From Nitrospiraceae bacterium (GTDB taxonomy: Bacteria; Nitrospirota; Nitrospiria; Nitrospirales; Nitrospiraceae): DNA of 64,000 nucleotides. Below are positions 8,459 through 53,525 of this stretch, in pieces. The position numbers and the translations under genes were made by a program. The DNA is taken from NCBI GenBank assembly GCA_013140715.1, contig JABFSG010000038.1, positions 62,001-126,000 of the forward strand. The letters are read 5' to 3'. Position 1 is the first letter of the stretch; the number at the start of each line of letters is the position of its first letter. The notes beneath the pieces were generated by a model. That model did not search any database. It saw only the letters and a program-made list of their open reading frames with translations, and was not told the DNA's origin.

Positions 8459-8467
8459 GGATTTAAA

Positions 8468-10687: not shown

Positions 10688-10694
10688 ATATAGC

Positions 10695-10790
10695 CTATGG
10701 GTTAAGCAGACTCGGAAGCAGCAGGTCACTGGTGTATTGCCGAGTCATGCCATTTGGCAAGTGCCATCCCAAGTAGAATGATCGGTGGGT
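10695..10790 (-). pseudogene. Relic of an hsdS 3' end
   Basis: In the 152-base gap between kinase and PIN-like gene, one minus-strand frame ends RQYTSDLLLPSLLNP. The intact HsdS nearby ends its conserved region with RCTRDLLLPRLLSG, the usual HsdS C-terminal signature. The DNA also aligns: aagcagactcggaagcagcaggt here against aagcagccgcgggagtagcaggt at about 12330. The resemblance covers only about 20 codons and has no start of its own, so it looks like a leftover of a second or duplicated hsdS. Confidence 0.55.
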
Positions 10791-10839
10791 CGAGTGATTA
10801 TTGTTGGTATTGTGCACCACCATTGGAACTCCTTCCAAA

Positions 10840-12302: not shown

Positions 12303-12309
<7 letters not shown>
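10840..12309 (-). CDS. Hanks-type Ser/Thr protein kinase embedded in the type I R-M operon
   Basis: Residues 15-265 form a complete kinase domain: glycine loop GKRGGFGQVFAG (20-31), catalytic Lys in DVAIKKL (42-43), HRDLKPDN (130-137), DLG in place of DFG (149-151) and YAAPEQW (about 173-179). The set suggests activity. No transmembrane helix or PASTA repeat is present, so it is cytoplasmic. The C-terminal 220 residues have a short coiled region then a Trp-rich domain (YWSWQGNNYQ) that I do not recognise. The start overlaps hsdS by seven bases, so the two are translationally coupled. A regulatory or abortive-infection role is inferred. Confidence 0.9.
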
Positions 12310-13450
<1,141 letters not shown>

Positions 13451-13454
<4 letters not shown>

Positions 13455-29421: not shown

Positions 29422-31203
29422 CTAGCGAGAAAGACCCTTTGTCTTCCGCTTATTCGATCGTCTGGTCAGAATCCAACCTTCCAGAAGAACGACGCCGGCC
29501 GCAATCGCCACAGGATAAATATAGGCCTCCTGCGGGGTCGGCGGCTCTAAGAAGGTGTAGTAGAAGGCCGAGACAGCCATCTTCCTACCAGCGTCTCCAT
29601 TGTGCCCGTCCCAGGCGAAGAACACGGTGGGAATGTATTGTCCCATTTCAAAGAACGTATCCGAATCGTAATCCTGCTCTTTCTTATCGCCCAACGGACG
29701 CTGAATGATCACCGTCCATCGGCCATTTTTCCATTCCGAGAAGAGTAACTTGATGTTCTCTTCGTAATCGAAGCGTTGTTCAAAGTCTTTATCCCATCCG
29801 GTCCCTTTGAAGGCGCGCAACGAACCATCAGCCTCCCACTTCACAATGTCCATCGGGAACTGTTCGTTGCTGCCGAACAGGTAGCGGGGCTTAATCGGTG
29901 CGGGAAGCTCTTTCCACTTTATCGCAGTTTCCATGGCGACGGCATCATTATAGACGGTGTAATTATTCTGATGCGCGGCAATAGAACCCTCTTCCCCGGT
30001 CTTTGGATCCTGCTCCTTGACTTCCACGTTGACGGAGGTTGGAGCCCAGGGCAGCTTTCCTTCGGCTACGCTCTTCGTACGATCGTCCCACTGGAACATG
30101 AACACGACATGCGTTTCATTGTAAAGCGACTTTACCCAGAGGTCGTCGATCCGGTTCACAAAGTTTCTGGGCTTGTGAGTGATCTGACCGCCCATTGCAA
30201 TATAGCGCCTGGCCCTCTTCGTCCACAATTCATTCTCCGGATCGGCTGAAATCTCTCCTTCGACCTTCCCTGAGGGCACCACAAAGTTGATTTTAGGTTT
30301 GTCAGCCTGTGGGTCGATTGGGAGAGGCTTTCCCTCTACATCCCGTTCACAGAGGGAGTTCACAAAATTTGCAATGTGCCATCGCTCTTCAACTGTCGTA
30401 TTGTCGGCAAACGAAGGCATCGGAGTACCGTTGACTCCGGTCGAAAATGTCCGGAAGATATTCTTCACATTATAGGGATCTTGCCGGCTGCCTCTGAAGT
30501 TCCAACACTTGTGCCAGTTGGCCGGCTGGATCGAAAAGCCCCAGTCGTCTTTCAGGTTGAACGCATTGCCGTCGCCACGGCCTTCGACGCCATGACATTC
30601 AATGCACTTCTTTTCGACAATCAGCTCGGCCCCCTTTTTCAAACTCTCTTCAGACGCGGCAATCGGAGCCAACTCAGCCAGCTGCAAGACAGTTTGGCTC
30701 TCTGACTTCGTGTCCGTAAATTTTCGATCTTTTACAAGTTGCGTCGTCACAAACGACAAGACTTGAAGCCGTTGCTCCTCTGTCAGAATACCTTCCCATG
30801 GCGGCATGGCGGAGCCTGGTAACCCGTGGGTCACAGTCGCAAAGAGATCGTTCTGTCCCTCAACCGGTTTCTTGGCATCGAACAGGGGCAATTCTCCACT
30901 GGCCGTATGACGAATCTTGAACGTCCCCTGATTGAAATTGCGGGGACGAGGCCAGAGACGATCGGCACCTGGGCCGTCGCCGGCGCCATCTACACCGTGA
31001 CACCAGACGCACTTGGTGAAGTAGACCCGTTTTCCTGCTTCGATCATATCGGCAGACGGTTCCGGTGCAAGCGCTCCAGCCTTAAAGCCTGCAGGCAGTG
31101 AATCTGCGGCAAAGGCAAACCCTCCAGCGTTTGCAGAGAGCAAGATCACTCCAAAGGCAGTTAGGGATAACACCCCTGCCTTCAGACTAAACGAATTCTT
31201 CAT
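29422..31203 (-). CDS. Dihaem cytochrome c fused to ethylbenzene-dehydrogenase-like haem-b domain, membrane anchored
   Basis: Signal peptide (1-33, cut near AFA-AD), first haem motif CVWCH (65-69), second CIECH (200-204) with a Met-rich ligand loop (GSAMPPWEG after the first, GTPMPSFAD after the second). Residues from about 315 form an EB_dh-type domain similar in kind to NxrC (RYIAMGGQI, VVFMFQWDD). One C-terminal helix (about 563-580) is followed by RRSNKRK, so the protein is periplasmic with an anchor. The fusion of cytochrome c with an NxrC-like fold suggests an electron carrier between nitrite oxidation and the bd-like oxidase next to it. That role is inference. Last gene of the block. 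Confidence 0.88.
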   Translation of the reverse strand: MKNSFSLKAGVLSLTAFGVILLSANAGGFAFAADSLPAGFKAGALAPEPSADMIEAGKRVYFTKCVWCHGVDGAGDGPGADRLWPRPRNFNQGTFKIRHTASGELPLFDAKKPVEGQNDLFATVTHGLPGSAMPPWEGILTEEQRLQVLSFVTTQLVKDRKFTDTKSESQTVLQLAELAPIAASEESLKKGAELIVEKKCIECHGVEGRGDGNAFNLKDDWGFSIQPANWHKCWNFRGSRQDPYNVKNIFRTFSTGVNGTPMPSFADNTTVEERWHIANFVNSLCERDVEGKPLPIDPQADKPKINFVVPSGKVEGEISADPENELWTKRARRYIAMGGQITHKPRNFVNRIDDLWVKSLYNETHVVFMFQWDDRTKSVAEGKLPWAPTSVNVEVKEQDPKTGEEGSIAAHQNNYTVYNDAVAMETAIKWKELPAPIKPRYLFGSNEQFPMDIVKWEADGSLRAFKGTGWDKDFEQRFDYEENIKLLFSEWKNGRWTVIIQRPLGDKKEQDYDSDTFFEMGQYIPTVFFAWDGHNGDAGRKMAVSAFYYTFLEPPTPQEAYIYPVAIAAGVVLLEGWILTRRSNKRKTKGLSR

Positions 31204-31261: not shown

Positions 31262-32299
31262 TTAGTCCCAAGTTCGTGGGTAATACCCCGTGTGCCAATA
31301 CTCAAACATGACGACTTTCCAGATTTCATCTACGGTCAAATGCTGTTCCCATGGCGGCATGACAGAGGCCCATGGGAAGCCTTCGTTCGGCAAGCCGATT
31401 CCACCCTTTGAAACGCGCCAGAAAATAAATGTTTCCTGTAACTGGGCGATTGTGCCTGGGTCAGTAAAATTCGCCGGGATAGGATTGAATGCGAAGGCAT
31501 GGAGGCCACGACCATTCAGATTGTCCCCATGGCAGAAGTGGCAATTTTGATAGAAAATTTCCCCGCCCTCACGCACATACTTGAGATACCCTTGCGCATC
31601 CTTATCCCAGGGATTTGCATTCGGCTTCATCAAACGGCCCATACCCTGCTCCACAATATTAGCGTTACTGTATTCCTGATCGTACTTTCCTTCAGGATTG
31701 ACTCGGTAGGGGTTCTGCGATGTTTGAAGCGTATAGGTTTTCCCATGCACCTTCGTGCTGGCTGGTGGAGCCGGATGCACCGTTCTCAACTCGATCGGTT
31801 CTTCAGATTTTGGGACCATTGCGTTGTAAGAGAATCCGCCGATCAATATCGGGAGGATAATGAGGTATGCATACCGCAACAACCGGTTACCCCCGGTCTT
31901 GGCGTCCAGGACGTTCATGATCGGCTGCTTGAATTTCTGCCAATCTTCCTCGTTGGCGGAAACCCACATGAATACAGCTACGAGGGAGACCGTCCCGTAC
32001 ATCGCGCGGACGCTGAAGGGGATCGGAGGATAGACGCGAAACTTCAAATAGAGAAGAACGAAGGCCCAACAACTAATCCCTTGCCAAAACCGTGGGAAAG
32101 CCATTCCCATGGATGACATCATGTAGCTGATACCCGTAAATCCAGCCACGAAAAGGATCAGCTCCGCGATCACTTGGACCGGCATGTACCCTTCGATCAG
32201 GCGCACAGTGTCTGACGGAATGATGCCGACAATCATTCCGGAAAGCAGGAGTAATCCCGCTACCCCTATAAGTGCCCCGAGCGACATTATAGCTTTCAT
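31262..32299 (-). CDS. Membrane-bound monohaem cytochrome c
   Basis: Four hydrophobic helices in the first 160 residues (about 5-25, 42-60, 76-90, 100-115, 145-160 are candidates) precede a periplasmic cytochrome c domain with CHFCH (253-257) and likely Met ligand in ASVMPPWEQHLT. The membrane part contains no obvious haem-b histidine pair. It lies between the dihaem EB_dh protein and the CPLCH protein, all on the same strand with short gaps, so the three likely function as one electron-transfer module with the bd-like subunit. 345 residues. Confidence 0.87.
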   Translation of the reverse strand: MKAIMSLGALIGVAGLLLLSGMIVGIIPSDTVRLIEGYMPVQVIAELILFVAGFTGISYMMSSMGMAFPRFWQGISCWAFVLLYLKFRVYPPIPFSVRAMYGTVSLVAVFMWVSANEEDWQKFKQPIMNVLDAKTGGNRLLRYAYLIILPILIGGFSYNAMVPKSEEPIELRTVHPAPPASTKVHGKTYTLQTSQNPYRVNPEGKYDQEYSNANIVEQGMGRLMKPNANPWDKDAQGYLKYVREGGEIFYQNCHFCHGDNLNGRGLHAFAFNPIPANFTDPGTIAQLQETFIFWRVSKGGIGLPNEGFPWASVMPPWEQHLTVDEIWKVVMFEYWHTGYYPRTWD

Positions 32300-32356
32300 C
32301 GATGAGCTCCCATATTGATGTGCATCCCTACTCGATAACCAGATCCCGCATCCTGA

Positions 32357-33670
32357 TCATGATATCTTCGGTGGCGGTGAACCGGCTTTCACTTGCGACA
32401 AATAGTCGACAATCTTTTTTAGCGCGCCCGCACTCAGCTTTGTCCCGAATTCCTTTGGCATCAAGTTGTCAGGAAAAGGCTTAACAACGTAAGTGCTGGG
32501 CGACACGATGGACTCCATGATGTATTCTTGTGTGTTATGTGCAGTTCCCTTGTACGCCGGATCCTTGATCCTATTTGGTGCATTGGTCCCCTCTTCAAGG
32601 ACGGGACCCTGCTTGCCGGTCGCACCGGGGATGCCGGGAATGGTATGGCACAGAATGCACGTGGATTTAGCAAAAATCACATCGATCGGTTCGGTACCAT
32701 CGGCCAGGAGAGCACTAGCCGCACCTGCCGGCTTGTCTTCCTGCTGCTTCGGACGATCAGCTTCCGGAATAAACTTCTCATAGGACTTGATGATTTCATC
32801 GTATGACGGAGCATCGATCCCTTCACGCAAATATAACCAGGTATCGACGGCAGCCAACTCCTGAAGGCTCAACGAGATGGGTGGCTTGTGAATCGCGGGC
32901 ATCGGGCTGGTTTTATCATTCGTCCCCTTGACGCCATAACCGGAAACGACATAGCAGCTGGGGCATGAATGGGACTCAGCAATATACTCCTGGCCATTTT
33001 CCGCAGTCCCGGAACCTGGGAACGCTTCCTTATCGTCAAATTCACGACCCTTTGGGTTTCCCTTACTGTACTTGGGATCTTCCAACCGCTCCTTGCCTGC
33101 ACGAGCCGGAAGACCCTGTAAATTGGGAGCACGTTCTCCAAGCATCCCGGCATGGAACGCATGGCAGAGAGGACATTGGCCTTTGCCGACTGCTCCTTGC
33201 TCTTTATTCTTTCCAATTCCACCGAAAATAATCTTTTCCCCTTCATCGGCAAGCTGTTGAGCGGTCATTGCCTCATATTGAAGCTTCTCTTCTTTAGGAG
33301 GAAACCCACCTTCAACTTGTGGCAGCCAATTTCCATAGCCTGAGAGACCGGCAGCGACAAGGAACATGAAGCCACCGATCTTCAGCAGTGCTGCGTGATT
33401 GGGGAAATAGATTCCCAACATGAAACATGCTGCTGTGATGAGGACCAAGGAGACGGGAAGCATCCGGTTCGCTTCATAGAAGCTGCCCTTGTAATGAGCG
33501 ATGGCTAGTAGCAACAAACATGCGCCAAGCGTCCCGATAAAGAGCTTGAACATCGAGCTCTTTTTTGCAGCGGCATCCTTCCCTGCCACGATGGAGTAGA
33601 TGAAAAGGCTGGCAAGAAGTGCAAATAGCGGCCAGCCTATTGTTAGAGCTTCCTTTATCAGCTCACTCAC
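32357..33670 (-). CDS. Membrane dihaem cytochrome c with two homologous domains
   Basis: GTG start at 33670 with aggaggtt upstream. Four helices (about 8-28, 42-58, 72-90, 97-112) are followed by two cytochrome c domains: CPLCH (166-170) and CILCH (338-342). A third cysteine pair, CPSCY (236-240), looks like a broken haem site. However, it aligns with SPSTYVV in the second domain (both inside EYIxES...PSxYVV), so it is a structural repeat, not a haem motif. 437 residues. It precedes the other two cytochromes and follows the bd-like oxidase subunit by 80 bases. Probably donates electrons to or receives them from that protein. Confidence 0.87.
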   Translation of the reverse strand: MSELIKEALTIGWPLFALLASLFIYSIVAGKDAAAKKSSMFKLFIGTLGACLLLLAIAHYKGSFYEANRMLPVSLVLITAACFMLGIYFPNHAALLKIGGFMFLVAAGLSGYGNWLPQVEGGFPPKEEKLQYEAMTAQQLADEGEKIIFGGIGKNKEQGAVGKGQCPLCHAFHAGMLGERAPNLQGLPARAGKERLEDPKYSKGNPKGREFDDKEAFPGSGTAENGQEYIAESHSCPSCYVVSGYGVKGTNDKTSPMPAIHKPPISLSLQELAAVDTWLYLREGIDAPSYDEIIKSYEKFIPEADRPKQQEDKPAGAASALLADGTEPIDVIFAKSTCILCHTIPGIPGATGKQGPVLEEGTNAPNRIKDPAYKGTAHNTQEYIMESIVSPSTYVVKPFPDNLMPKEFGTKLSAGALKKIVDYLSQVKAGSPPPKIS

Positions 33671-33750: not shown

Positions 33751-35664
33751 TTAGTGGCCCGCAGCCGGTTGCGGTGCACCGCCGGGAACCTCTGCCTTCG
33801 CTGGAACAGGAGCCTTCTTCATCCCGAGGCTTCCCAGCCAGAAGACGAATAGGATGCTCACCCAGAAGAACAACACATTGAAGGAGATCATGTTCGCTGC
33901 AAAACCCACCGTATGCGTATAGGCCCAAGGTGAGTTGTCACGCATGATCTCATTCACATGCCAGAACAACCGAACTGAAGAACGTATGTATCCCATCAGC
34001 CCCATCATCCAGGTAAAGGCGGTTGCGAGCATGATCAAGGCATATTGCGATCGAACGGATATCTTGCCCCACTCGATAGCTCCCATTTGCTTGGCGCCCT
34101 TCATCATGGCGCTGTTGAGCGGGAACATAAAGAAGAGACAAGACAGGGTTGTCGCAACTTGTGGAACGGATAGACCGACTCGCACGTTTGCCGGAATATA
34201 GTACCCGTAAATGGCCAACCAGATAATATTGACATAGGCGCAGGCGAAGAAGACGCCCATGAAAATATTACCGAACTTCGACCAGGATACAGTGGAGACT
34301 TTATTGCCTCGCATATACCAGACGAAGCTCAAAATAGTGGTGGTAATGATGACGTTGATACCCCCATTTTTGGCGGACATGACTCCATAGTTTCCCAACA
34401 CCGGATGCTGCTGACCGCCCATCGCTTTCAATTCGGCAGGGGTCATCACGATGGTGTGGGGAGTAATGAAGACCAGGTAGCCGCAACAGAGGATGAATAC
34501 AAGATACTTAATGTAGCGCTGATATTTTTCGGCGCCGCGCATACGGCCTAGTGCCTGCCAGAGATAGTAATTCGTGCTCAAGAAAAGAATACCGATCATG
34601 GTGGCTTGAATGATAAAGAGCCAGGCCAACAGACCGCCCATGAGCGTGATCCCCATCTGCTGACGGTAGGCATAGACCTCCCGCATCAACCAGTACCCGG
34701 CAAAGGGCAGAGGAATGAGGAATGCCACGCCAAGAGCCATGGCGATATAGCCCATCCAGTCGTAATGCGCGCGATCTTCATCGGTCTTTGAAGCCAAGAA
34801 TTTGTAGGCCGCGTAGGCCGCCACGACACCGCCGCCGAACGCCATGTTACCCAAAATCCGGTGAACGTTGAGTGGGTTCCAGAGAGCGGTATGGATGACG
34901 TGCCAAATGTTCCCCAAGAACCGGCCCTGCTCATCGACGCCGGCCGGCGACATCATGAAGCCGATCCATGAATTTGCCAGGAACATCAGCAATGTTCCGA
35001 TCACGTTCAATATCACGGACATGCTCAGGTGGATCCACTTCAGGAACCCATCTCTCATCTTGTCCCAACCATAATAGTAGATGTAGAGGGTTCCGCTCTC
35101 CGCCACGAACATCAGCGCATAGATATGCATGACCGGGCGGAAAATACTGGATAAGTAGCCGAAGAAGGCGGGGTAGAGCGTGAGGAAGGTGAAGATCAGA
35201 ATACCGCCTAAAATTGCGGTCAGTGAATAGGCCGTCAAACTGATTTTAATAAAGTCATAGGCGAGCTGGTCATACCGCTTCGCCATTGCCTTATCCTTCG
35301 TGACGACACCCATGAACTCGATCACCATGCAGAAAATCGGCACTGCAAGCACAAAGCTTCCGTAATAGAGATGCTGCTGGTTCGCAAACCAGAGGAGCAC
35401 GCGGCTCTCAAAGTTGTATCGCGGATAGTCCTTAGGCCCATCGACGGTCTTTGGCGCAGGAGCGCCGATCGCGAGCCCCTCGGTCTTATAATAGACATCG
35501 CGCCCCTTCTCGTACTTCTGCTCCCCTTCCTTCTTCACCGCATCAGGAGCATCTGCGCCAATAGCCAGTGAGGGAAGCGATACGGCGATGGGGAGCAGGA
35601 GAAGGCCAACCATCGCGACAAGCGCCATGATTGAAAATAACTTCTTCCCGGCCACACGTCCCAT
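33751..35664 (-). CDS. Cytochrome bd-like oxidase subunit I, copy 1
   Basis: ATG at 35664 with aaggaggtatctc is preferred to the track start. 637 residues: signal-like helix, a 60-residue polar part, then about 13-14 helices. LLWFANQQHLYYGSFVLAVPIFCMVIEF resembles the CydA helix I with its haem-ligand His, and GYWLMREVYAYRQQMG, PHTIVMTPAELKAMGGQQHP and RVGLSVPQVATTL follow. The classical quinol-loop motif GRQPW is not present. It is surrounded by membrane cytochromes c and no cydB is seen. Nitrospira bd-like proteins have been proposed as the terminal oxidase accepting electrons from cytochrome c; that is recalled knowledge, not shown here. Confidence 0.85.
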   Translation of the reverse strand: MGRVAGKKLFSIMALVAMVGLLLLPIAVSLPSLAIGADAPDAVKKEGEQKYEKGRDVYYKTEGLAIGAPAPKTVDGPKDYPRYNFESRVLLWFANQQHLYYGSFVLAVPIFCMVIEFMGVVTKDKAMAKRYDQLAYDFIKISLTAYSLTAILGGILIFTFLTLYPAFFGYLSSIFRPVMHIYALMFVAESGTLYIYYYGWDKMRDGFLKWIHLSMSVILNVIGTLLMFLANSWIGFMMSPAGVDEQGRFLGNIWHVIHTALWNPLNVHRILGNMAFGGGVVAAYAAYKFLASKTDEDRAHYDWMGYIAMALGVAFLIPLPFAGYWLMREVYAYRQQMGITLMGGLLAWLFIIQATMIGILFLSTNYYLWQALGRMRGAEKYQRYIKYLVFILCCGYLVFITPHTIVMTPAELKAMGGQQHPVLGNYGVMSAKNGGINVIITTTILSFVWYMRGNKVSTVSWSKFGNIFMGVFFACAYVNIIWLAIYGYYIPANVRVGLSVPQVATTLSCLFFMFPLNSAMMKGAKQMGAIEWGKISVRSQYALIMLATAFTWMMGLMGYIRSSVRLFWHVNEIMRDNSPWAYTHTVGFAANMISFNVLFFWVSILFVFWLGSLGMKKAPVPAKAEVPGGAPQPAAGH

Positions 35665-35752
35665 GAGATACCTCCTTGATGCATTCTGAAAACAACTCAT
35701 GCCATTTTTCTCCACAAGCTCAATTCAAACAGACGACGACTCTCCCTATTAT

Positions 35753-39253: not shown

Positions 39254-41128
39254 TTATGCCTCTTGTGACGAGGATGGCGGCGCCAGCACCCTCGTATTTT
39301 CCACTGCCACCTCTGCTCCCTTCGCCGGCGACTGATCTCGCTGACACATCCAAAATAGAGCGAGCACCGCCCCCCAGAATACCATCATGTTGAGCGTGAC
39401 CATCTTTGCAGCAAACGCAAAGTCCGGTGTAAAGGCCCAAGGCGAGACATCGGCCATCAACTCGCTCACGTGCCACGCCAACCGCCCGGAGGAACGGATA
39501 TAACCCATGAGGCCCATGACCCACGTAAATGCTGCAGCCAGCCCGAATAAACCTGCCATGCCCCTCAGAGAAATCTTTCCCCACTGGATCGGCCCATGGA
39601 GGACCGAGCCCTTGAGCATCATGCGATTGATGATCACTCCGACCACAAGGACCGTCAGCGTGGTCGCCGCTTGCGGCGTCGACAGCCCGACGCGAAGCTT
39701 CGCCGGCAGATAATACCCATACACGGAAAGCCAGATAATGTTGATCGCCCCCAGAACGAACACCAGGCCGATGAGAATGTTCCCCTTCTTGGCCCAAGAT
39801 ACAACCATCGTTCGATTGGCGCGACGGTAGTACAGAAAACTCATGGTGGTGACGAGAATCATGATATTGACCGCGCCATTCTTTGCCGACATCACTCCAT
39901 AGTTGCCGACTACGGGATGTTGGGCTCCACCCATGGCCTTCACTTCACTGGCCGACATAAACACGGTGTGCGGCGTCAGCCAAATAACCAAGGCCACCAT
40001 AAACACCGAGAGGAGCATTTGGTAATAGGGTTGATAGCGACTACCCCCCTGAAGGCGAGCCATGCTCTGCCAGAGATAAAAATTGATTCCGAGAAAGAGG
40101 ACGCCGATCAAGATAGCCTGCACGACAAAGAGCCAGGTGAGCAACCCACCCATCATCGTCACCCCCATATTCTGGCTGAATGCGTAGACCGATCGCATCA
40201 ACCAGTAGCCGGCAAAGGGCATCGGGAGTAACGCGCAGACCGTGACAAATAAGAAGATATGCCCGACCCAATCAAAATAGGCGCTCTCTTTTTCCGATTT
40301 GCTGGTGAAGAATCGATAACAGGCGTATGCCATGACCACCGCGCCACCGGACATGATGTTTGCCAGGAAGCGGTGGACGTTCAATGGATTCCATAGGGCA
40401 GAATGGAGCAGATGCCACCCGTTTCCCAAATACTGGCCCTGCGCATCGACACCAGCCGGCGCCATCATGAAGGCCGACCAGGCGTTGGCCAAGAGCAGCA
40501 ATGCTGTCCCAAAGAGATTACTCAACAAGCCGATCGATGCATGAGCCCACTTCGAAGCCGGCTCAACCAGCCGGTTCCAGCTATAGTAATAGGTAATGAG
40601 CAGCGCCGATTCTCCGAAGAACACGAACGCATAGACCGGCATGAAGGTCTTGAATGTCCCGCCCATGTACCTCATGAAACTGGGGTAAAAATAGAGAAAG
40701 ATCCCCAGCATGACGCTCCCAACCACAGCCGTGACCGATAGGGAGAGCAGAGCCACTTTCGCCAAGTCGCGAGCGAGACCGTCATAGCGAAGCGCGAGCT
40801 CGGGTTTTTTCGTGCTGAGCCCGAGAAATTCCAGCAACACACAAAAAATCGGCAATGCCAGAACAAACCCTCCGAAGTAGGTGTGGAGTTGTGTGACGAA
40901 CCATACAATCAATCGACTGTCGAAGGATCCGATGCGTGAATAGACCGTCTCCTCGGGAGAAGGAACCGAAGGACCTTGGGGAGTTCCTGGGGTCTTGAAA
41001 TAGAGATCGGTGCTGCTCTCGGCAAAGGATTGGCTATACAGGCCCCAGCCAATTATCGAAGCTGCACAAATAGCTGTCAGCAGGACCGCATACCCGATGA
41101 CCCTGTACGCTCTCTTCTTCATGACCAT
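39254..41128 (-). CDS. Cytochrome bd-like oxidase subunit I, copy 2
   Basis: 624 residues, paralogous to copy 1 over the whole length: QLHTYFGGFVLALPIF, PFAGYWLMRSVYAFSQ, TPHTVFMSASEVKAMGG, QHPVVGNYGVMSAKNG and LRVGLSTPQAATTL match in order and spacing. Likewise about 14 helices, no GRQPW loop and no cydB partner nearby. Differences concentrate in the termini. It lies in a separate run with DUF3047 and an unknown membrane protein, without its own cytochrome c genes, so it may be a divergent or regulatory copy. Substrate unproven. Confidence 0.83.
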   Translation of the reverse strand: MVMKKRAYRVIGYAVLLTAICAASIIGWGLYSQSFAESSTDLYFKTPGTPQGPSVPSPEETVYSRIGSFDSRLIVWFVTQLHTYFGGFVLALPIFCVLLEFLGLSTKKPELALRYDGLARDLAKVALLSLSVTAVVGSVMLGIFLYFYPSFMRYMGGTFKTFMPVYAFVFFGESALLITYYYSWNRLVEPASKWAHASIGLLSNLFGTALLLLANAWSAFMMAPAGVDAQGQYLGNGWHLLHSALWNPLNVHRFLANIMSGGAVVMAYACYRFFTSKSEKESAYFDWVGHIFLFVTVCALLPMPFAGYWLMRSVYAFSQNMGVTMMGGLLTWLFVVQAILIGVLFLGINFYLWQSMARLQGGSRYQPYYQMLLSVFMVALVIWLTPHTVFMSASEVKAMGGAQHPVVGNYGVMSAKNGAVNIMILVTTMSFLYYRRANRTMVVSWAKKGNILIGLVFVLGAINIIWLSVYGYYLPAKLRVGLSTPQAATTLTVLVVGVIINRMMLKGSVLHGPIQWGKISLRGMAGLFGLAAAFTWVMGLMGYIRSSGRLAWHVSELMADVSPWAFTPDFAFAAKMVTLNMMVFWGAVLALFWMCQRDQSPAKGAEVAVENTRVLAPPSSSQEA

Positions 41129-42199: not shown

Positions 42200-42293
42200 G
42201 ACCCGTTAGGGGTGAAGGGTGAGGGGTAAGGGGACCATGGCTTGCTCATCAGCCACACTCACCTCACCCCTCACTCCTGACCCCTTACCCTTT
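42200..42293. repeat. Imperfect inverted repeat between genes
   Basis: Left arm gggtgaggggtaagggg (about 42218) pairs imperfectly with the right arms cacccctcactcctgacccc and cccttacccttt (about 42262-42293). The two G- or C-rich arms enclose about 25 bases. It overlaps the 3' end of the PCP_red gene and the gap before the next gene. It could be an intercistronic hairpin. Confidence 0.5.
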
Positions 42294-42779
42294 CTGAGCG
42301 CCCATTCCGAAATAGCGAGCCTTCACTTCTTCCATCAGGGCCACGGTGATGCGCCGCTCTCCGCGATCTGCCGCGGTCCGCTCTAATTCAATACGCGCCA
42401 TGGCCCGTACCGGCGCCGGCACCCTGTCCAATCGGCGCTCGGCATCAAGATCCCATTCCATACGTTCGCCGGTTCTTGGACGGAGCAATGTATCGTAGGT
42501 GATGACCCGCTCTCCCCTCCCCCGCACGTCTTGCTCGACCTCGCAACGCACAAGCGGAGCAAGGTACGGGGGCATGCGATCCAGTCGATGGATCGCTTCA
42601 TCTGTCCACATTACCCGATCGACAAGTCTTCCTGGTTGACCGGCAGGGACATCGACTCCTACTTTGAGCCCACAGCCGCGACATTCCGTCCGAACGAACC
42701 ATTGAGCAATCTCGTCGCCATAGGAACGTTCTTCAATCCCCTCAGTGTGCATCCAACGACCGCAGCCACAGGTCAGCAT
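42285..42779 (-). CDS. Zinc-ribbon protein with two PCP_red-like domains
   Basis: ATG at 42779 (MLTCGCGRWMH) replaces the track start, which lies in a repeat. The N-terminus has CGCGRW and, about 30 residues on, CRGCG, a four-cysteine zinc-ribbon pattern. Two tandem units follow: WTDEAIHRLDRMPPYLAPLVRCEVEQ and DLDAERRLDRVPAPVRAMARIELE, each with a following (R)GERxIT. This is the pattern of the PCP_red domain found at the end of protochlorophyllide-reductase subunit B. Here it is unrelated to chlorophyll. 164 residues. Function unknown; perhaps a redox or assembly factor. Confidence 0.75.
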   Translation of the reverse strand: MLTCGCGRWMHTEGIEERSYGDEIAQWFVRTECRGCGLKVGVDVPAGQPGRLVDRVMWTDEAIHRLDRMPPYLAPLVRCEVEQDVRGRGERVITYDTLLRPRTGERMEWDLDAERRLDRVPAPVRAMARIELERTAADRGERRITVALMEEVKARYFGMGAQKG

Positions 42780-42781
42780 GG

Positions 42782-42822
42782 TGAAACACCGTGAGTCGTG
42801 AAACGTGAAACGTGAAACGTCC
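42782..42822. repeat. Short tandem repeat gtgaaac(gt)
   Basis: cgtgaaacgtgaaacgtgaaacgt repeats an eight-base unit directly upstream of the PCP_red gene. Related words occur at 55874-55903 (cgtgaaacg, cgtgaagcgtgaagcg) and at 63810. Each copy touches a gene boundary. Its cause is unknown. Confidence 0.6.
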
Positions 42823-42892
42823 CGGAGCGCATGACTATCCGCCAACTCTGCATTGCGCGCCCATCACTCATCACGGATCACCCGTCACTTCC

Positions 42893-44882: not shown

Positions 44883-45677
44883 TTACTTGATTTCAGCCTT
44901 CAGATTGGCAGTCCCACCGTCGGTCACATCGACATCGAACTCGATTTTCTTGCCCTTGGCAGCGAAAGGATGCCAGGCCACCACCTTATGCTTGCCGGCC
45001 GGCACATCCTTGATCTCGAAGGAACCATCGTCCTTTACAACCGCAAAGTGCGGGCTCGACACCGGAAGGTAGAAGCCCTGCATGAACTCATGCTGGTCGC
45101 ACTGCAACCGGTAGAAGCCATCCTTCTCTGCTCCGCCGCGGAACACGACCGGCTTGTCGAGCTTGTCACCCTTCTTGGCCAAGCCGATGTTGAAACCGGT
45201 GGCTGAGCTGGTGCCCTTCACCACAAAGCTATGGGGATTATGGAGCACACCTTGAACCGACTTTGGATCGTCCGGATCGGCGTCATGGTTTTCGACCTTG
45301 AAAGACTTGTTATTCACCACCACACCGGCGAAGGGCATAAACTCGCAGAATTCCGCAACCACCTCGGTGCCCTGATAACCATCCATGAACGCCTTGTCTT
45401 CGACATCGATCACCGCAACAACCGCATTCTTGAGGCCGCCGTCCTTGCCGACTTCGATCTGCTTCAGAAAGCGCTTATCCCCATCCATCAATTCCTTATG
45501 CGGGTTCTTAGGGCAAAAACCGGGGTTGGGGAACTTCGAGAACAAAAATTCCTTTTGCTCTGCCTTTCCCGCATAGGTCACCTTTCCGGCAATCGTTCCA
45601 CCTGCAAACGAGGTGAACGGCGCTGCGACAAACGCAACGGCTGCCACGCCAAATACAACTGATAACGCACTCTTCAT
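44883..45677 (-). CDS. Periplasmic cupredoxin / carboxypeptidase-regulatory-like protein
   Basis: Signal peptide (1-25, cut near SFA-GG). A cupredoxin-type half holds VLHNPHSFVV and the copper triplet QCDQHEFMQGF (CxxHxxM), then a carboxypeptidase-regulatory beta fold FAVVKDDGSFEIKDVPAGKHKVVAWHPF. This matches the family often labelled methylamine-utilisation-like cupredoxin. Type 1 copper with His, Cys, His and Met ligands is plausible, so it could be a soluble electron carrier. It is paralogous to the gene at 47875. ATG has aaggaggtag upstream; the operon is single-gene with its own terminator. Confidence 0.85.
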   Translation of the reverse strand: MKSALSVVFGVAAVAFVAAPFTSFAGGTIAGKVTYAGKAEQKEFLFSKFPNPGFCPKNPHKELMDGDKRFLKQIEVGKDGGLKNAVVAVIDVEDKAFMDGYQGTEVVAEFCEFMPFAGVVVNNKSFKVENHDADPDDPKSVQGVLHNPHSFVVKGTSSATGFNIGLAKKGDKLDKPVVFRGGAEKDGFYRLQCDQHEFMQGFYLPVSSPHFAVVKDDGSFEIKDVPAGKHKVVAWHPFAAKGKKIEFDVDVTDGGTANLKAEIK

Positions 45678-46845: not shown

Positions 46846-47253
46846 TTAGGCTCCGCTCTCTCTGAGAGCCGCTAGGTGCTTCACAGCTTCCCGTGCTGCT
46901 GTGCGGGCTTTGATCGCAGGATTTAAACTTGCCCCTGGATCTACCTTGTCTCCCAGTTCCGCAACCCGCCGACAGTGCTTAATCGCTTCTAGTAAATGGG
47001 GCTGAGCTTCCTTGCCGTGCGGATCGCTCGGAGGAAGGGCCTTAAGAATTGCTTCCGCATGCCGACTGACTTCACCGCAATGATGGACGATCGCTTTCGT
47101 GTCTCCCATTCCCCCATGAGCGACCATGTCCTCTGCATCCTTTATCATGGCCGTGCCTTGCGCCTGAATATCTTTCACGGTCGCTCCCATCGCCGCCTGA
47201 ACGGGGAGTAGTAATCCGAGCAGAAATGCGCAGGTTATAAATGTGCGGCTCAT
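46846..47253 (-). CDS. SmbP-like small metal-binding protein
   Basis: Signal peptide (about 1-23, ending AMGA). The mature protein is helical with repeated His positions, DMVAHGGMGD, AIVHHCGEVSRHAEAIL, DPHGKEAQPHLLEAIKHCRR. This resembles SmbP, the periplasmic copper-binding protein first known from Nitrosomonas. ATG at 47253 is preferred over TTG three bases earlier. 135 residues. Lies downstream of the copper-protein operon, consistent with metal storage or buffering. Metal specificity unknown. Confidence 0.75.
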   Translation of the reverse strand: MSRTFITCAFLLGLLLPVQAAMGATVKDIQAQGTAMIKDAEDMVAHGGMGDTKAIVHHCGEVSRHAEAILKALPPSDPHGKEAQPHLLEAIKHCRRVAELGDKVDPGASLNPAIKARTAAREAVKHLAALRESGA

Positions 47254-47335
47254 CAAAGTATCACGCCCTTCCTAGTGTGGTCCTACAAACCTGTATCACG
47301 ATTCTTGCGAATTACGCTTCACGGGTGTTCAGAGC

Positions 47336-47364
47336 GCCGCTGACGGACTTCTTCAGCATCCTGC
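47336..47364. repeat. Second copy of the ctg(g/a)cggactt(t/c)ttcagcatcctg repeat
   Basis: gctgacggacttcttcagcatcctgcac repeats the outer arm at 46818-46842 with two differences. It overlaps the 3' end of the gene ending at 47353, supplying its last codons. Confidence 0.7.
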
Positions 47365-47874
47365 ACAGTAGCGACCAGCTGGCTTCAAGGGAACCGATGT
47401 CAGCTTCCCGTACAATTCATGAAACTGCTCGGTCGACAAGGAGGTATCGAGCAGACGCGCAAGGTCCTCTTTCAGAATGGGATACTCAACTGTGTCGTCG
47501 AAATTCGATGAGGCGATCGTCACAAATCGTGGGGGGAAAAGCCGTTCCGGCAGAAGAATCCCGATACCCAGATTATATTTGAGCGCCAACCGAATCGCCT
47601 CGCGCGCCTTATCGGCCGGTACCGCTCTCCCCATGCCGATGTTTTGCGGCGGCTGGCCATACCTCGCAAACTGAAAGTGGACATTGGGCATGCCCGCTTG
47701 GACGAACTCCTCGGTCAAGGCCTCTACCTGATGCTTGTACTGACTGGCCAGGACCACTTCGATCCGGCTCACCGGGGGCATCGGCGTATCCTCCGCCCAT
47801 CCAGCAACCGCGCCCGCCATGCTCGCAGATACCGCCATGGTGATGGCGATAATAGTTCCACTCAGTCTCATCAT
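47353..47874 (-). CDS. Secreted protein of unknown function
   Basis: 173 residues with signal peptide (1-27, ending GWA). The body has FARYGQPPQNIGMGRAVPADKAREAIRLALKYN, then FVTIASSNFDDTVEYP. I do not recognise the family. The C-terminal CAGC is encoded by the repeat at 47336, so the end may have been altered by it. It starts one base after the stop of the cupredoxin gene, so translation is coupled. Confidence 0.65.
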   Translation of the reverse strand: MMRLSGTIIAITMAVSASMAGAVAGWAEDTPMPPVSRIEVVLASQYKHQVEALTEEFVQAGMPNVHFQFARYGQPPQNIGMGRAVPADKAREAIRLALKYNLGIGILLPERLFPPRFVTIASSNFDDTVEYPILKEDLARLLDTSLSTEQFHELYGKLTSVPLKPAGRYCAGC

Positions 47875-48651
47875 CTACTTCGCCTTGAACTGAAAATCCG
47901 TCGACACTGTGCCATTGGCCGCGACCGTTACATTCTGGGCCTGCTCGCCCAGGATCGGATGCCAGGCCCTAATACGATAGGTCCCGGCCGGCAGGTCCGT
48001 GATCGCAAAGGTACCCTCCAGCCCAGTGATGGCATAGTAAGGATTGTCGACCGCCAGCCCATGCCCCTGCATGTAGGGATGCATCCCACATTGCACCACC
48101 ACCCCGCGGCGGTTCCCCGTGAAACGAATGATGTCTCTCGTCCCCTCCCGCGTCAGCGCTGGACGGTGAAACATCATGAAAATATGTTCCCATTCCCGTT
48201 CGTAGAACTGGAGATCATGCGAGACACCATCCAGATTCTTGACCACGAGGGGATGCTGATCGCGCATGACGGAGACGAACGGGATAAACTGACAGATATT
48301 CGTCTCCAGGTGCGTTTCCTCGAAGTCGAAGGACTTCCCCTTCTCGATGCCCTGAATGGTCACAATCACATCTTTCAATCCCTGTGCCGGTCCCACGGCT
48401 ACCTCGCGAAGAAACCGCCATCCCGACCCATCCGACAGCGCCCCACAGTAGTCTCGATCGGGATAGCGGCGGAGTTCAAAGCCGGTGGGTGGCGGGGGAT
48501 CACCGGCAAACTGCACGGTTCCGGTAACCGTTCCCCCGTTCGACACGGTTGTGGCTTCGTAGGCCCAGGCCGTGACCACGCCGCTCGTGACCAGGCTCAG
48601 GAGGACTGCACCGCGGATAAGCAATTTCACGCACCAGCCATGTCTCGTCAT
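47875..48651 (-). CDS. Periplasmic cupredoxin / carboxypeptidase-regulatory-like protein, second copy
   Basis: Signal peptide (1-30, ending TAWA). It has LDGVSHDLQFYE, VVQCGMHPYMQGHGL (CxxHxxM) and AITGLEGTFAITDLPAGTYRIRAWHPILG, aligning with the gene at 44883 (QCDQHEFMQGF and AWHPF). Copper ligands His-Cys-His-Met appear complete. It follows the giant multicopper oxidase after a terminator, so it may be separately expressed, but its place suggests a redox partner. 258 residues. Confidence 0.85.
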   Translation of the reverse strand: MTRHGWCVKLLIRGAVLLSLVTSGVVTAWAYEATTVSNGGTVTGTVQFAGDPPPPTGFELRRYPDRDYCGALSDGSGWRFLREVAVGPAQGLKDVIVTIQGIEKGKSFDFEETHLETNICQFIPFVSVMRDQHPLVVKNLDGVSHDLQFYEREWEHIFMMFHRPALTREGTRDIIRFTGNRRGVVVQCGMHPYMQGHGLAVDNPYYAITGLEGTFAITDLPAGTYRIRAWHPILGEQAQNVTVAANGTVSTDFQFKAK

Positions 48652-48785: not shown

Positions 48786-51700
48786 CTATCGCCCCGGCAT
48801 GGACGTGCGCAACACCTCACCGTCGGTATTGTCACCTTCCGCCGTCTTGGTCGGCGGCACTTGCGGCATCAAGGGGAGCAGCCGTTGGTCGCCCATCGGC
48901 AGCACCTTGAAGAGGCCCCACTGCCCAGCATTGGCAAACGCCGGCCGCTGGTTCTTCCACAGATAATCGCCAACGATCTTATTCGGCCCGCCGGCTCCAC
49001 CGGTTAGATACGCGTTGATAATTTCAGACCCACCGAATTCCATCGTGCTGACCTGATCGGCCCCCTGCATATAGGGTTCATGCGGCCACTCGTGACCATC
49101 GATGGTAAAGAGCTGGACCTGTTCGCTAAATGCGCCCAGCACATGGATCGCCACCGGATCCCCGACATGCGCCTGCAACAGAGGCGTAGACGGCATCTCG
49201 CCCGCCTTCACGCAACTGAATATCTCAGCCACTTCACAGCCCTTTTCGATGCGCCAGGCCGTCGGTTCGGAACGGTAGTTCACCGCCGTGATCCCGGCTA
49301 CCTGCTGGATATAGGGCATGAAACTCACACCCACGATGTTATCCTCGTCTTGGAACATTAGAGAGAATGACCGGTAGTTTTTCCGGTTTTCGTTTCCGGG
49401 AAGCGTCCGGTCCACCATCACGTCCGCGCGCCAGCTGCTCTTCATCGTGATATCGCCGCCTGTCATCGGATCGCGGTAGTGCGATCCCTTAGGCCCGACA
49501 ATGATAGAACCGAACAGCCCGTTGCGCGGATTCTCAACGACATTCCCCCAATCCTGGATGAGAGCCGCCAGTTCACCGTACTCCGGATGGGCATAGTAGG
49601 TGTACGTCTTGCTCTGGCCGGGGCCGATCGTTTGATCCCCCGGATTATTGCCGACATTGGCGCCGAACGAATCCTTCGGATTGAATGCCATCATATCGAC
49701 ATGGAAGCCGGCCCGATCCTTCGCCATCTCATTCTTCAGATTGATCTTCACGCAATCGCCGACGTTCACGTGCAGGGTCAGGGGGCTCGGCTTCAGTTCG
49801 CCGGCCTTGACCTTGCCCCGATCCCCGTCGAGCACATACATTTTGCCCTGCTCGTTGCCGAAGACCATCTTCCGTTCCAGATCGACTTCCATCACGCCCG
49901 GCGCTCCGTCATGATACCGGATGTTCTGATCGATCGCCGAAACGTTGAAGCTCTTCACGGGCGCCTCCGCCGGACAGACCGATGAAGCGGATTTTTGAAT
50001 CTGCTCACGACTCGGCAAGGGTTTCAGATCTCCTTGCAACTCATCGAACACCCGGAACAGGCCCCAACTGCCTTCAGCAAAGTGCGAGGCCCGACCACTG
50101 TAGTAGAGATAGTCGCCGGCCTGCTTCTGCGGCCCACCAGCGGCGGGAATCGCCGGATCGTACCGCTCGCCGATCGCCAGATGGATGGTGCTGCGCGGCA
50201 TCGCAGTGATTCCATACCGTTCCATTGGGAACCAGTGGCCGGTCACATGCCAGGTATGGACTTCATTGGCGGAGCCCACCAGAGCCCGTACCAGAATGGG
50301 ATCGCCCAGGTAGGCTCGTAACAACGGCGTGCCGGGGTCGCCATGAATCCCGGACACAAAGAGTTTCGAGGGATCCGGATCGTTGGCCAAGCGCACGCTC
50401 AACGGCTCCACACGCATACTGTAGCCGCTGCCGGTCGTCGCTTCACCGCCGTTCAGGAACCGCATCGCCGATTTGTTGATACGGGCCGGGAATTGATGCG
50501 ACGGAGGCCCATCCACAGTCACTGCATCCAACTTGGCTTGTGGGTTGTCAGTGGTGATCAACTCCGCCGTCCGAGCATTACTGTCCATGATATGCATCAT
50601 CACTTCGCGGAAACTGCCACGGATATGGGCTGACACAGGCTCCAGCGTATGAATATCCGCGATGGGGCCGCTTCTGAGTTCTTTTCCGGTCACCGGGTCA
50701 TGATAGGTTGAGCGCGGAGGCTCGGTAATGAAAGCGGAGAACAGGCCATGGCCCCAGGTATCGGTGCCGAACACATGGTCATGCCAGTAGACCGTCCCAA
50801 AGTCTGCATCCACATACCACCGCTCACGGATGAACTCGACGCTCGCAATGTCATTCTTCTTATGTGCGTATTTCAACGGCCGATCGAAAGCAATGGTTTT
50901 GCCGGTGATGCTCTTGATCCGCGCGACTTCAAAGTATTTCGGGTCATCCATCGCCACGCCAAGTTCCGTATTCACATGGAACTTGGACGCATCCGCCACG
51001 GCGATACTCATGGCGCCGGCCTTGGTGTCCGCCGTCTGGACTGTATTGCCCGGGAGCGGCATCCCTTTGGTCGGTTGCGGGTCCGTCAGCATGGTAAAGG
51101 CCCGCAGGGACATATCGTAAGAGAAGCCGATTGTCGGCCCGTCAGATGAACTGGTATCGAATTGGAAGAAATGCGGATGGAGGTTGACCTTGTTGGCCCA
51201 ACCAGTTCGCGCATCGTCGGGAATTTTGTTCTTGTAGATGACATCCACGCAGTCGTAGACATTTCCACGGATCACCAACGGCACTTGCTTCTTGGGGGTC
51301 GCACGAACCTCCGCTTCCTCCTCGTGAAGCACAAAAATCATACCGATCGGATCGACGATGGCCGGTGTTTTGGCCGTTGCCGGTTTCAATGTGATCGGCA
51401 AGGTAATCGCGTTCACATTGAAGTGTTTGCGTGGCGAGTCGGACGGGCAGAGACTCCAGGGTCCCTGTTCGCCTGGCTTGGCCGGCTCTGTGCTCTTCGT
51501 ACCGTCTTCACGAACATGGAATGGCTCTAACCAGGGCGCACCGCCGTGATTCGGAGCAAACGGAGGCCGCTTGCCCAGATGCGGACGGAGCCAGGGGAAC
51601 GCCAGCTTGCCTGTCTGCGGATCGAAGGTAATCGCCGGCCGCTTCAACGGCGTGGGAGAGACGTAATCGGCCCACTTGTGGGGAGTCTCCGGTTCATTGA

Positions 51701-53525
51701 GCGCTAACGTGCCATCCCATTTCCAGTTCACCACCGTTGCGTCATGTGCCGCTGCTTGCTTGGTCTGGTCTTCCGTCTTACCCGGCAGACCCTGCGGCGG
51801 CAGCATGTACTCCACCCAATCCTTGATGGAGACCTTCACCGGATTAGCTTTCCAATCCGTTTTATCTTTGGTGATCTCCCACTTCTTGCCGCCATACCAA
51901 TCCACCGTCGTACCGACCAGCTTATCGGAGGAGACAGCCTGCTGAATCTTGCCCTTGCGGTCCGGCAGTTCCACCAGCGGCTTCATCACATCGGTCTGAA
52001 ACCCCGCCGATTGCAGCGTGTTATACACACGCCAGAAGCCCCACATCCCTGTCACATAATGTTGTGGAATATGGCAATGGAACACGAACTCTCCTGCCAA
52101 CGCTTGCAAACCACCGGAACCACCCTCTGTTACTTCATCATAAATTTCCGAGGGCCCGATCGACTGCACATCCAGCCGGTCCGAGGTATCGCTGATCGGG
52201 GGGAACTTGACCGGCCCGTTCTTGGAGAGGGTCGGATCGAGCTTGCTGGTCAAGGGCTGCCTGGCCCACCGGATCGAGCCCCCATGGAGGTGGTGAGAGT
52301 GCACGATCTCCGACCCGCCGACCATCCGGAACGTGGCCGGATCGCCGAGATAGGATCGCGGAACCGTCGTGGCTGGATCACCGAACGTGTAAGACCCATA
52401 GCCCTGCGATTCATCACTAAACCCAATCAAATGCTCCTGCTGTTCCAATCTCGTGCCGTGTGGCTCACTACGATAATTCAGCAAGCGCGCAGCAGGCCGA
52501 TAAGTATCGGTGTGCGGATCGCGCTGCGGCAGCATGTCGCCCTTGCGGTTCAGCAATCGGAACGTTTCATCTCCTGCCTCATGATAGAAAATCACAAATT
52601 CTCTAAAATCCGACCCGTTTGCCACATCGATCATGGCTTCCCAGCCGCTCTTCATCTCCTCCCCGGTGAAGGGGCTGAGGAAGCGGGAGCCTCGCGGTTC
52701 GACGACCAGCGATCCCAGCAAGCCCAAGGAATACTGATCCCGGCTCGCATGGCTGTGGAACGCCCGTCCACCGACTTGCAGATCGTTGGGGATCGCCCAT
52801 TCGAACTCTCCGCTCTTGCCGGTCGGCACCAGGGCATCCGGGTTATTGGCAGTCGCCGGCTTCCCCGTGCTGGCCACCAGCATCTGGGAGCCATTGATGA
52901 TCATGTTGGTCGCATCGTCGGCAATCTGGTTGCGCAGCGTGATCTTGAGGCAATCGCCCTGGTTCGCCCGGATGACCAGTGGTTGGATCAGATCGCCCTG
53001 CAACCCGTGTGAAACAGCACCTCCCGAAAACGTCGGATCCTCGCTGTCCCGCGCCGCCTGGTTCTTCGCTTCTTCGGCCCGAACTCCGGCAACATCCTCA
53101 GTCAGGACATACATGAAACCGGGATAGAAATCCCCAAACCGACTGACCGTGATCTCGACCGTGATGGCAGAAATATCGTAGGCCCGGACCGGCATCTGCG
53201 CCGAGCAGCGCGCGCCTTGCCCTACCTTCACCTTATCTTTATCTTCCGCGACGAGGAGCACCCCTTGCTGCATCGCATGGGCGCCGGCGCCCTGGAAAGG
53301 ACCTTTGCTCTGCACCTGCCTCTCAATCTGCTCGATGGCGCGAGCCATCTTATCCTGCAGCACCGGACCCGCAGGCTGATGCACGACAGTCGCAGCAGCT
53401 GCCGTTTCAGCATTCATCACAGCCGCATGCTGGTGAGAAGCCGTTTCTGCCCACGCCTGCGTGACGCCCAAGACGGCGGCGAGCAACGCAACCCCGGCCT
53501 GACTTACAAACTTTCTGGTGGTCAT
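48786..53525 (-). CDS. Giant multi-module multicopper oxidase (1579 residues)
   Basis: ATG at 53525 with caggaggaggagagg upstream; signal peptide MTTRKFVSQ...TQAWA. Three modules of paired cupredoxin domains are seen. Module 1 (about 90-520) has FHSHASRD (256), HSHHLHGG (408) and FHCHIPQHYVTGMWG (480), the last with full type 1/type 3 ligands, but no first HxH (NMIINGSQ instead). Module 2 (about 690-1150) has LHPHFFQFD (781) and YWHDHVFGTDTWGH (912) but ends YYSGRASHFAEGSWG with no HCH. Module 3 (about 1180-1570) has only remnants. The enzyme is periplasmic. Size and layout recall MofA/MnxG-type manganese oxidases; substrate is unproven. Confidence 0.85.
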   Translation of the reverse strand: MTTRKFVSQAGVALLAAVLGVTQAWAETASHQHAAVMNAETAAAATVVHQPAGPVLQDKMARAIEQIERQVQSKGPFQGAGAHAMQQGVLLVAEDKDKVKVGQGARCSAQMPVRAYDISAITVEITVSRFGDFYPGFMYVLTEDVAGVRAEEAKNQAARDSEDPTFSGGAVSHGLQGDLIQPLVIRANQGDCLKITLRNQIADDATNMIINGSQMLVASTGKPATANNPDALVPTGKSGEFEWAIPNDLQVGGRAFHSHASRDQYSLGLLGSLVVEPRGSRFLSPFTGEEMKSGWEAMIDVANGSDFREFVIFYHEAGDETFRLLNRKGDMLPQRDPHTDTYRPAARLLNYRSEPHGTRLEQQEHLIGFSDESQGYGSYTFGDPATTVPRSYLGDPATFRMVGGSEIVHSHHLHGGSIRWARQPLTSKLDPTLSKNGPVKFPPISDTSDRLDVQSIGPSEIYDEVTEGGSGGLQALAGEFVFHCHIPQHYVTGMWGFWRVYNTLQSAGFQTDVMKPLVELPDRKGKIQQAVSSDKLVGTTVDWYGGKKWEITKDKTDWKANPVKVSIKDWVEYMLPPQGLPGKTEDQTKQAAAHDATVVNWKWDGTLALNEPETPHKWADYVSPTPLKRPAITFDPQTGKLAFPWLRPHLGKRPPFAPNHGGAPWLEPFHVREDGTKSTEPAKPGEQGPWSLCPSDSPRKHFNVNAITLPITLKPATAKTPAIVDPIGMIFVLHEEEAEVRATPKKQVPLVIRGNVYDCVDVIYKNKIPDDARTGWANKVNLHPHFFQFDTSSSDGPTIGFSYDMSLRAFTMLTDPQPTKGMPLPGNTVQTADTKAGAMSIAVADASKFHVNTELGVAMDDPKYFEVARIKSITGKTIAFDRPLKYAHKKNDIASVEFIRERWYVDADFGTVYWHDHVFGTDTWGHGLFSAFITEPPRSTYHDPVTGKELRSGPIADIHTLEPVSAHIRGSFREVMMHIMDSNARTAELITTDNPQAKLDAVTVDGPPSHQFPARINKSAMRFLNGGEATTGSGYSMRVEPLSVRLANDPDPSKLFVSGIHGDPGTPLLRAYLGDPILVRALVGSANEVHTWHVTGHWFPMERYGITAMPRSTIHLAIGERYDPAIPAAGGPQKQAGDYLYYSGRASHFAEGSWGLFRVFDELQGDLKPLPSREQIQKSASSVCPAEAPVKSFNVSAIDQNIRYHDGAPGVMEVDLERKMVFGNEQGKMYVLDGDRGKVKAGELKPSPLTLHVNVGDCVKINLKNEMAKDRAGFHVDMMAFNPKDSFGANVGNNPGDQTIGPGQSKTYTYYAHPEYGELAALIQDWGNVVENPRNGLFGSIIVGPKGSHYRDPMTGGDITMKSSWRADVMVDRTLPGNENRKNYRSFSLMFQDEDNIVGVSFMPYIQQVAGITAVNYRSEPTAWRIEKGCEVAEIFSCVKAGEMPSTPLLQAHVGDPVAIHVLGAFSEQVQLFTIDGHEWPHEPYMQGADQVSTMEFGGSEIINAYLTGGAGGPNKIVGDYLWKNQRPAFANAGQWGLFKVLPMGDQRLLPLMPQVPPTKTAEGDNTDGEVLRTSMPGR

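Follow-up and report, generated by a model that had tools for sequence, protein, structure and literature searches.

The window analyzed here, a 64,000-nucleotide stretch of Nitrospiraceae DNA, carries a gene for a giant multicopper oxidase whose copper motifs appear split between its modules. This raises the question of whether such a protein can assemble an active site and, if so, what it oxidizes.

The open reading frame runs on the reverse strand from an ATG at 53525 to the end of its stop codon at 48786 and encodes 1579 amino acids. A strong ribosome site, AGGAGGAGG, lies ahead of the ATG at 53539-53531, and by eye the product has an apparent signal peptide ending in AWA. This is a genuine gene for an exported protein. 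Pfam matched module 1 only (Cu-oxidase_3 and Cu-oxidase_2). Profile self-alignment with hhalign resolved six cupredoxin domains, in which domains 1, 3, and 5 mutually align, as do domains 2, 4, and 6, and the comparison with MnxG returned six matched stretches. The gene and its parts are as follows.

48786-53525, reverse strand: six-domain multicopper oxidase of the MnxG type with a signal peptide (open reading frame, ribosome site, PDB and Pfam matches)
52650-53228, reverse strand: cupredoxin domain 1, residues 100-292 (hhalign against domains 3 and 5; conservation)
51990-52628, reverse strand: cupredoxin domain 2, residues 300-512, predicted location of the type 1 copper and of one half of the trinuclear center
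51456-51965, reverse strand: linker between domains 2 and 3, residues 521-690, well conserved, no Pfam match
50676-51458, reverse strand: cupredoxin domain 3, residues 690-950 (profile alignment)
50838-51095, reverse strand: insertion of ~85 residues in the interval from motif 1 to motif 2, no Pfam match (spacing)
50010-50663, reverse strand: cupredoxin domain 4, residues 955-1172, with His-1090, His-1093, and His-1148 kept and Cys replaced by Ser
49440-49985, reverse strand: cupredoxin domain 5, residues 1181-1362, with His-1275 and Asp-1277 kept
48870-49418, reverse strand: cupredoxin domain 6, residues 1370-1552, without a copper motif (profile alignment)

The second half of the insertion at 50838-51095 was modeled at a pLDDT of ~95 as a compact, strand-rich unit. 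The copper motifs themselves fall in domains 2 and 3.

52284-52301, reverse strand: motif 3, HSHHLH, residues 409-414, domain 2, invariant in 110/110 homologues
52044-52079, reverse strand: motif 4, HCHIPQHYVTGM, residues 483-494, domain 2, invariant in 110/110
51171-51179, reverse strand: motif 1, HPH, residues 783-785, domain 3, invariant in 110/110, aligned with HIH of MnxG
50775-50783, reverse strand: motif 2, HDH, residues 915-917, domain 3, invariant in 110/110, aligned with HDH of MnxG

Spelled out, the domain 2 motifs read H409-S-H-H412-L-H414 and H483-C484-H485-IPQ-H489-YVTG-M494. All 13 motif residues that we checked, His-411 included, were identical in the 110 homologues, at identities down to ~50%. 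Twelve of them also match in six distant oxidases (from Priestia, Rubrobacter, two haloarchaea, Streptomyces, and Hymenobacter), the one exception being Rubrobacter, where the axial Met is a Phe. Domain 2 alone carries motifs 3 and 4 with the type 1 ligands, and motifs 1 and 2 lie in domain 3. This agrees with the original prediction that module 1 keeps only the later motifs besides one HSH, and that module 2 has the early ones and has lost HCH; the HCH position of module 2 is occupied by YSG (residues 1142-1144). The HSH of module 1 lies in domain 1 (residues 257-259; 52757-52749), with His-257 present in 100 of 110 homologues and His-259 in only 62. We rejected it as part of the active site because of this poor conservation and place it outside the copper site. 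Module 3 had been described as degenerate, which holds insofar as it has no copper motif; it is not decaying, however, with conservation of at least 97% in 107 of its 399 columns. Domains 4 to 6 as a whole contain no working copper motif, yet are well conserved.

The split between modules had been read as a sign that a single trinuclear center could form between module 1 and module 2, and homology strongly supports this for domains 2 and 3, in the motif order of MnxG. The best PDB match by sequence was 9bxa, the MnxG of Bacillus (E = 2.9e-89), and MnxG was also the best fold match in Foldseek (E = 1e-40). His-489 aligns with MnxG residue 340, the histidine mutated to alanine in 9bxa (H340A). 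In all bacterial six-domain oxidases surveyed by Vasin et al. (2013, PMC3600357), the center lies at domains 2/3 and the blue copper in domain 2. Because MnxG and that survey have the same arrangement, "split, permuted" motifs are normal for the class; the architecture is not new but the hallmark of a known class.

The window oxidase shares with MnxG (9bxa; NF041487) the six cupredoxin domains, the type 1 motifs in domain 2, and the trinuclear motifs across domains 2 and 3 in the same order. It differs in having only ~20-27% identity, 350 additional residues, a linker between domains 2 and 3 that is ~100 residues longer, a spacing of 130 instead of 44 residues between motifs 1 and 2 (the ~85-residue insertion is absent from MnxG), and SMBP-like and cupredoxin genes as neighbors. 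Against the NCBI MnxG equivalog model NF041487, it scored 141 bits, far below the cut-off of 3100 bits.

In ceruloplasmin, the trinuclear center lies at domains 1/6 and the blue copper in domain 6. The likeness to both proteins that had been proposed for this oxidase therefore holds for MnxG, with its identical motif order, and fails for ceruloplasmin, which has in common with it a six-domain cupredoxin ring and a single trinuclear center. As domain 6 has no copper motif, we rejected a center of the ceruloplasmin type at domains 1/6, and the protein falls outside the ceruloplasmin/hephaestin class.

AlphaFold models reached a mean pLDDT of 66 for domains 1-4 (36 sequences) and 72 for domains 2-3 (75 sequences), with domain 2 mostly below 50. 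This low confidence probably arises because domain 2 is over-conserved for covariation and the alignment contained no distant relatives. MnxG still ranked first when these models were searched with Foldseek, with TM-scores to 9bxa of 0.50 and 0.35, too low to establish the domain 2/3 interface.

On these grounds, the protein is probably an exported, catalytically competent oxidase of the MnxG class that reduces O2 and draws its electrons most likely from a periplasmic metal ion. The analysis shows the ligand set, the order of the domains, the kinship with MnxG, the gene pairing, and the near-universality in the class. We infer copper loading, O2 reduction, substrate, partner, and role alike, and the catalytic cycle can be proposed as follows. 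The type 1 copper in domain 2 (His-409, Cys-484, His-489, and Met-494) would accept electrons one at a time from the reductant and hand them on, via the HCH motif, to the trinuclear center at the domain 2/3 interface. There, His-412, His-414, His-483, and His-485 of domain 2, together with His-783, His-785, His-915, and His-917 of domain 3, would hold the coppers that reduce O2 to water. This reductant would most likely be Mn(II), or else Cu(I)/Fe(II), the adjoining blue-copper protein would be the probable redox partner, and the likely role would be metal and oxidative-stress homeostasis, not growth.

The conserved histidines further downstream might form another metal site. By profile alignment, His-1090, His-1093, and His-1148 of domain 4 correspond to His-409, His-412, and His-489, and His-1275 and Asp-1277 of domain 5 correspond to His-783 and His-785. 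In one of the two subfamilies described below (subfamily 1, Manganitrophaceae included), these ligand-homologous residues of domains 4/5 (48870-50663) are invariant or at least 97% conserved, whereas subfamily 2 has His-1093 in ~15% and His-1275 in 3% of its members. Invariant histidines occupy 4 of 10 ligand-homologous positions of domains 4 and 5 (hypergeometric p = 2e-5), a value to be read with the caveat that inheritance from a former site would by itself leave histidines there. Only their continued conservation argues that they are still used. Since Ser stands in place of both the Cys and the Met of this site, it should not form a blue copper. One conceivable reading of this pattern, which we consider decidedly improbable, is that subfamily 1 has a second metal site without cysteine at the domain 4/5 interface, derived from the lost second oxidase center and binding an ion such as Mn(II) or a type 2 copper that metal oxidation requires.

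The oxidase was found in 98 of 101 relatives, usually in multiple copies, and among named relatives in Nitrospira, Ca. Manganitrophaceae, and Troglogloeales. In the visible ordering of a phylum-wide draw, ~163 of the 164 sampled genomes of the class that holds Nitrospira and Ca. Manganitrophus carry it; elsewhere in the phylum Nitrospirota, five weak matches appeared among the matches listed. Related oxidases also occur in Streptomyces, haloarchaea, and Bacillus relatives. We built a tree in which the named relatives from outside Nitrospirota are all plasmid-borne and from which Nitrospina, MofA, and McoA sequences were left out. In it, subfamily 1 unites the window's type A, a type B (~70% identity), and one Manganitrophaceae copy (~62%) with a support of 0.999, and subfamily 2 (~53% identity) comprises all others, including the second Manganitrophaceae copy. 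Trees built separately from domains 1-2, 3-4, and 5-6 recovered the subfamily 1 clade again (0.98-0.995), and its nearest clade outside Nitrospiraceae is in the Mn-oxidizing Manganitrophaceae. By these phylogenies, the two subfamilies are ancient, and the window's is common to the Mn-oxidizing Manganitrophaceae. Subfamily 2 keeps an HIH in domain 1 in 42 of 59 members.

Manganitrophus has one oxidase of each subfamily, in tandem, presumably the two oxidases of Yu et al. (2022, PMC9040806). The resemblance of the window oxidase to these proteins is limited by the ~62% identity, and those authors assign neither to Mn lithotrophy. Among near-complete genomes, some have subfamily 1 only (the window's own genome, G020, and G030) and others subfamily 2 only (G001, G016, and G021). 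A single chromosomal slot, anchored by permease/PKD genes on one side and by Cup1 and a methyltransferase on the other, is occupied by type A at 14 loci and by subfamily 2 at 10, with the second anchor seen in 5 and 9 of these, respectively. The occurrence of either subfamily at one slot suggests that they replace each other in place and hence overlap in function.

The window's genome also contains a second oxidase copy, 93% identical, in two pieces (G000:C79:3880-8301 and the end of G000:C69; loci L126 and L127). The ends of the two contigs overlap by 287 bp at 99%, and the pieces are probably one gene broken by assembly.

The surroundings of the gene were then compared across loci. In the window they include the following genes.

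47875-48651, reverse strand: Cup2, exported cupredoxin-like protein, next gene downstream of the oxidase, with the type 1 set His-145, Cys-188, His-191, and Met-194
47353-47874, reverse strand: small secreted protein with the end CAGC, no Pfam match, a recurrent neighbor of the oxidase, in Manganitrophus as well
46846-47256, reverse strand: SMBP-like small metal-binding protein (PF16785, E = 7.7e-8), recurrent beside the window's subfamily
44883-45677, reverse strand: Cup1, second cupredoxin-like protein, which marks the conserved slot
980-1951: TorD-like protein
29422-31203: NxrC-like protein
31262-33670: cytochromes c
33751-35715 and 39254-41128: two cytochrome bd-like oxidases, in one cluster with c-type cytochromes

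A cupredoxin-like gene lies directly downstream of the oxidase on the same strand in 77 of the 101 loci with enough flank, mostly after a gap of 75-230 bp. Cup2 has a full set of type 1 copper ligands by sequence, and its Cys-69, Cys-120, His-145, Cys-188, His-191, and Met-194 are each kept by at least 121 of 122 homologues; we infer that it is the probable redox partner of the oxidase. An NxrA-sized protein (1154 residues) is encoded elsewhere in the genome, outside the window. The respiratory cluster also contains, at 42285-42845, a protein with two stretches matched by PF08369, the protochlorophyllide-reductase C-terminal domain. At 5282-15061 lies a type I restriction system in which two other genes, one for a protein kinase and one for a 753-residue protein, intervene among R, S, and M.

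Mn(II) is the leading candidate for the substrate. An enzyme that acts in vivo specifically on Mn(II), yields Mn(III)/Mn(IV) oxides like MnxG, and contributes to Mn oxidation by sand-filter Nitrospira would fit the MnxG-type architecture, the subfamily in common with Ca. Manganitrophaceae (0.98-0.999 support in the full tree and the three region trees), and the presence of MnxG in sand-filter Nitrospira metagenome-assembled genomes, with abundance tracking Mn removal (PMC12070406). We nevertheless hold this narrower reading to be tentative and rather doubtful, as six-domain oxidases are promiscuous in their substrates and the family is near-universal in nitrite oxidizers not known for Mn deposits. 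Moreover, Yu et al. prefer the cytochromes Cyc2 and PCC_1 as agents of Mn lithotrophy, pointing out that an oxidase in direct reaction with O2 conserves no energy. Oxidation of Cu(I) or Fe(II) in metal detoxification, the role of CueO and ceruloplasmin, is suggested by the SMBP-like protein and cupredoxins that adjoin the gene, by a distant Hymenobacter plasmid homologue near copper-export and metal-sensing genes, and by a Streptomyces plasmid homologue next to a CopC gene. Such a role is unlikely, given that the same genome has other candidates (Cu-oxidase_3 matches on contigs C100, C26, and C48) and that we noticed no CueO-type methionine-rich segment in the window oxidase.

The location of the gene could instead speak for a soluble oxidase of the nitrite-oxidizing respiratory chain, or a partner that exchanges electrons with it, acting with the cupredoxins and cytochromes c of its cluster. 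Its NxrC-like, c-type cytochrome, bd-like oxidase, and cupredoxin neighbors are those of published Nitrospira/Nitrospina clusters. Against this, the gene is absent from the anammox bacterium Kuenenia, which has the remainder of the cluster (Luecker et al., 2013, PMC3578206), and the oxidase also occurs in Manganitrophaceae, Streptomyces, haloarchaea, and Bacillus relatives, which are not known nitrite oxidizers; we regard such a partnership as very unlikely. A catalytically dead structural protein of the cell surface might be suspected from the giant size, the lack of copper motifs in four of six domains, and the weak score of Cup2 against a model for anammox S-layer proteins. We rejected this reading as scarcely credible, because all ligands are invariant in the 110 homologues of both subfamilies; the concern that the closest homologues might be dead is contradicted by the retention of every ligand in all relatives. 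A competent metal oxidase of the MnxG class remains the preferred reading.

A putative multicopper oxidase similar to the manganese oxidase of Bacillus SG-1 is described as conserved in Nitrospina gracilis and Nitrospira defluvii by Luecker et al. (2013, PMC3578206). In their account, its gene sits in the NXR cluster, which also encodes a TorD-like chaperone, a bd-like oxidase, cytochromes c, and two cupredoxins, and they propose that the MnxG-like protein serves in defense against reactive oxygen species via Mn(III). Compared by these descriptions, the window has an MnxG-like protein of the same kind in the same type of cluster; their account of the cluster offers no analysis of motifs, subfamilies, or domains 4/5. 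MnxG in Nitrospira and other nitrifiers was discussed in 2025, and Mn oxidation was proposed (PMC12070406, PMC11995701); no nitrite oxidizer is known to have been shown to oxidize Mn, a point covered for several nitrifier families by PMC11995701. Our search of the Nitrospira literature returned no expression data for the oxidase. The idea of Mn oxidation in nitrite oxidizers is already published (PMC3578206, PMC12070406, PMC11995701). What is new here is the near-universality of the oxidase in the class, the two subfamilies that swap at one slot, the blue-copper gene that usually lies downstream, and the invariant domain 4/5 histidines specific to one subfamily.

Mn oxidation by Nitrospira, for example in drinking-water sand filters, is a live question in the recent literature. 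The obvious protein on which to test it is this near-universal oxidase, whose predicted site is intact and whose subfamily extends to the Mn lithotroph Manganitrophus; the split into two subfamilies provides a built-in comparison.
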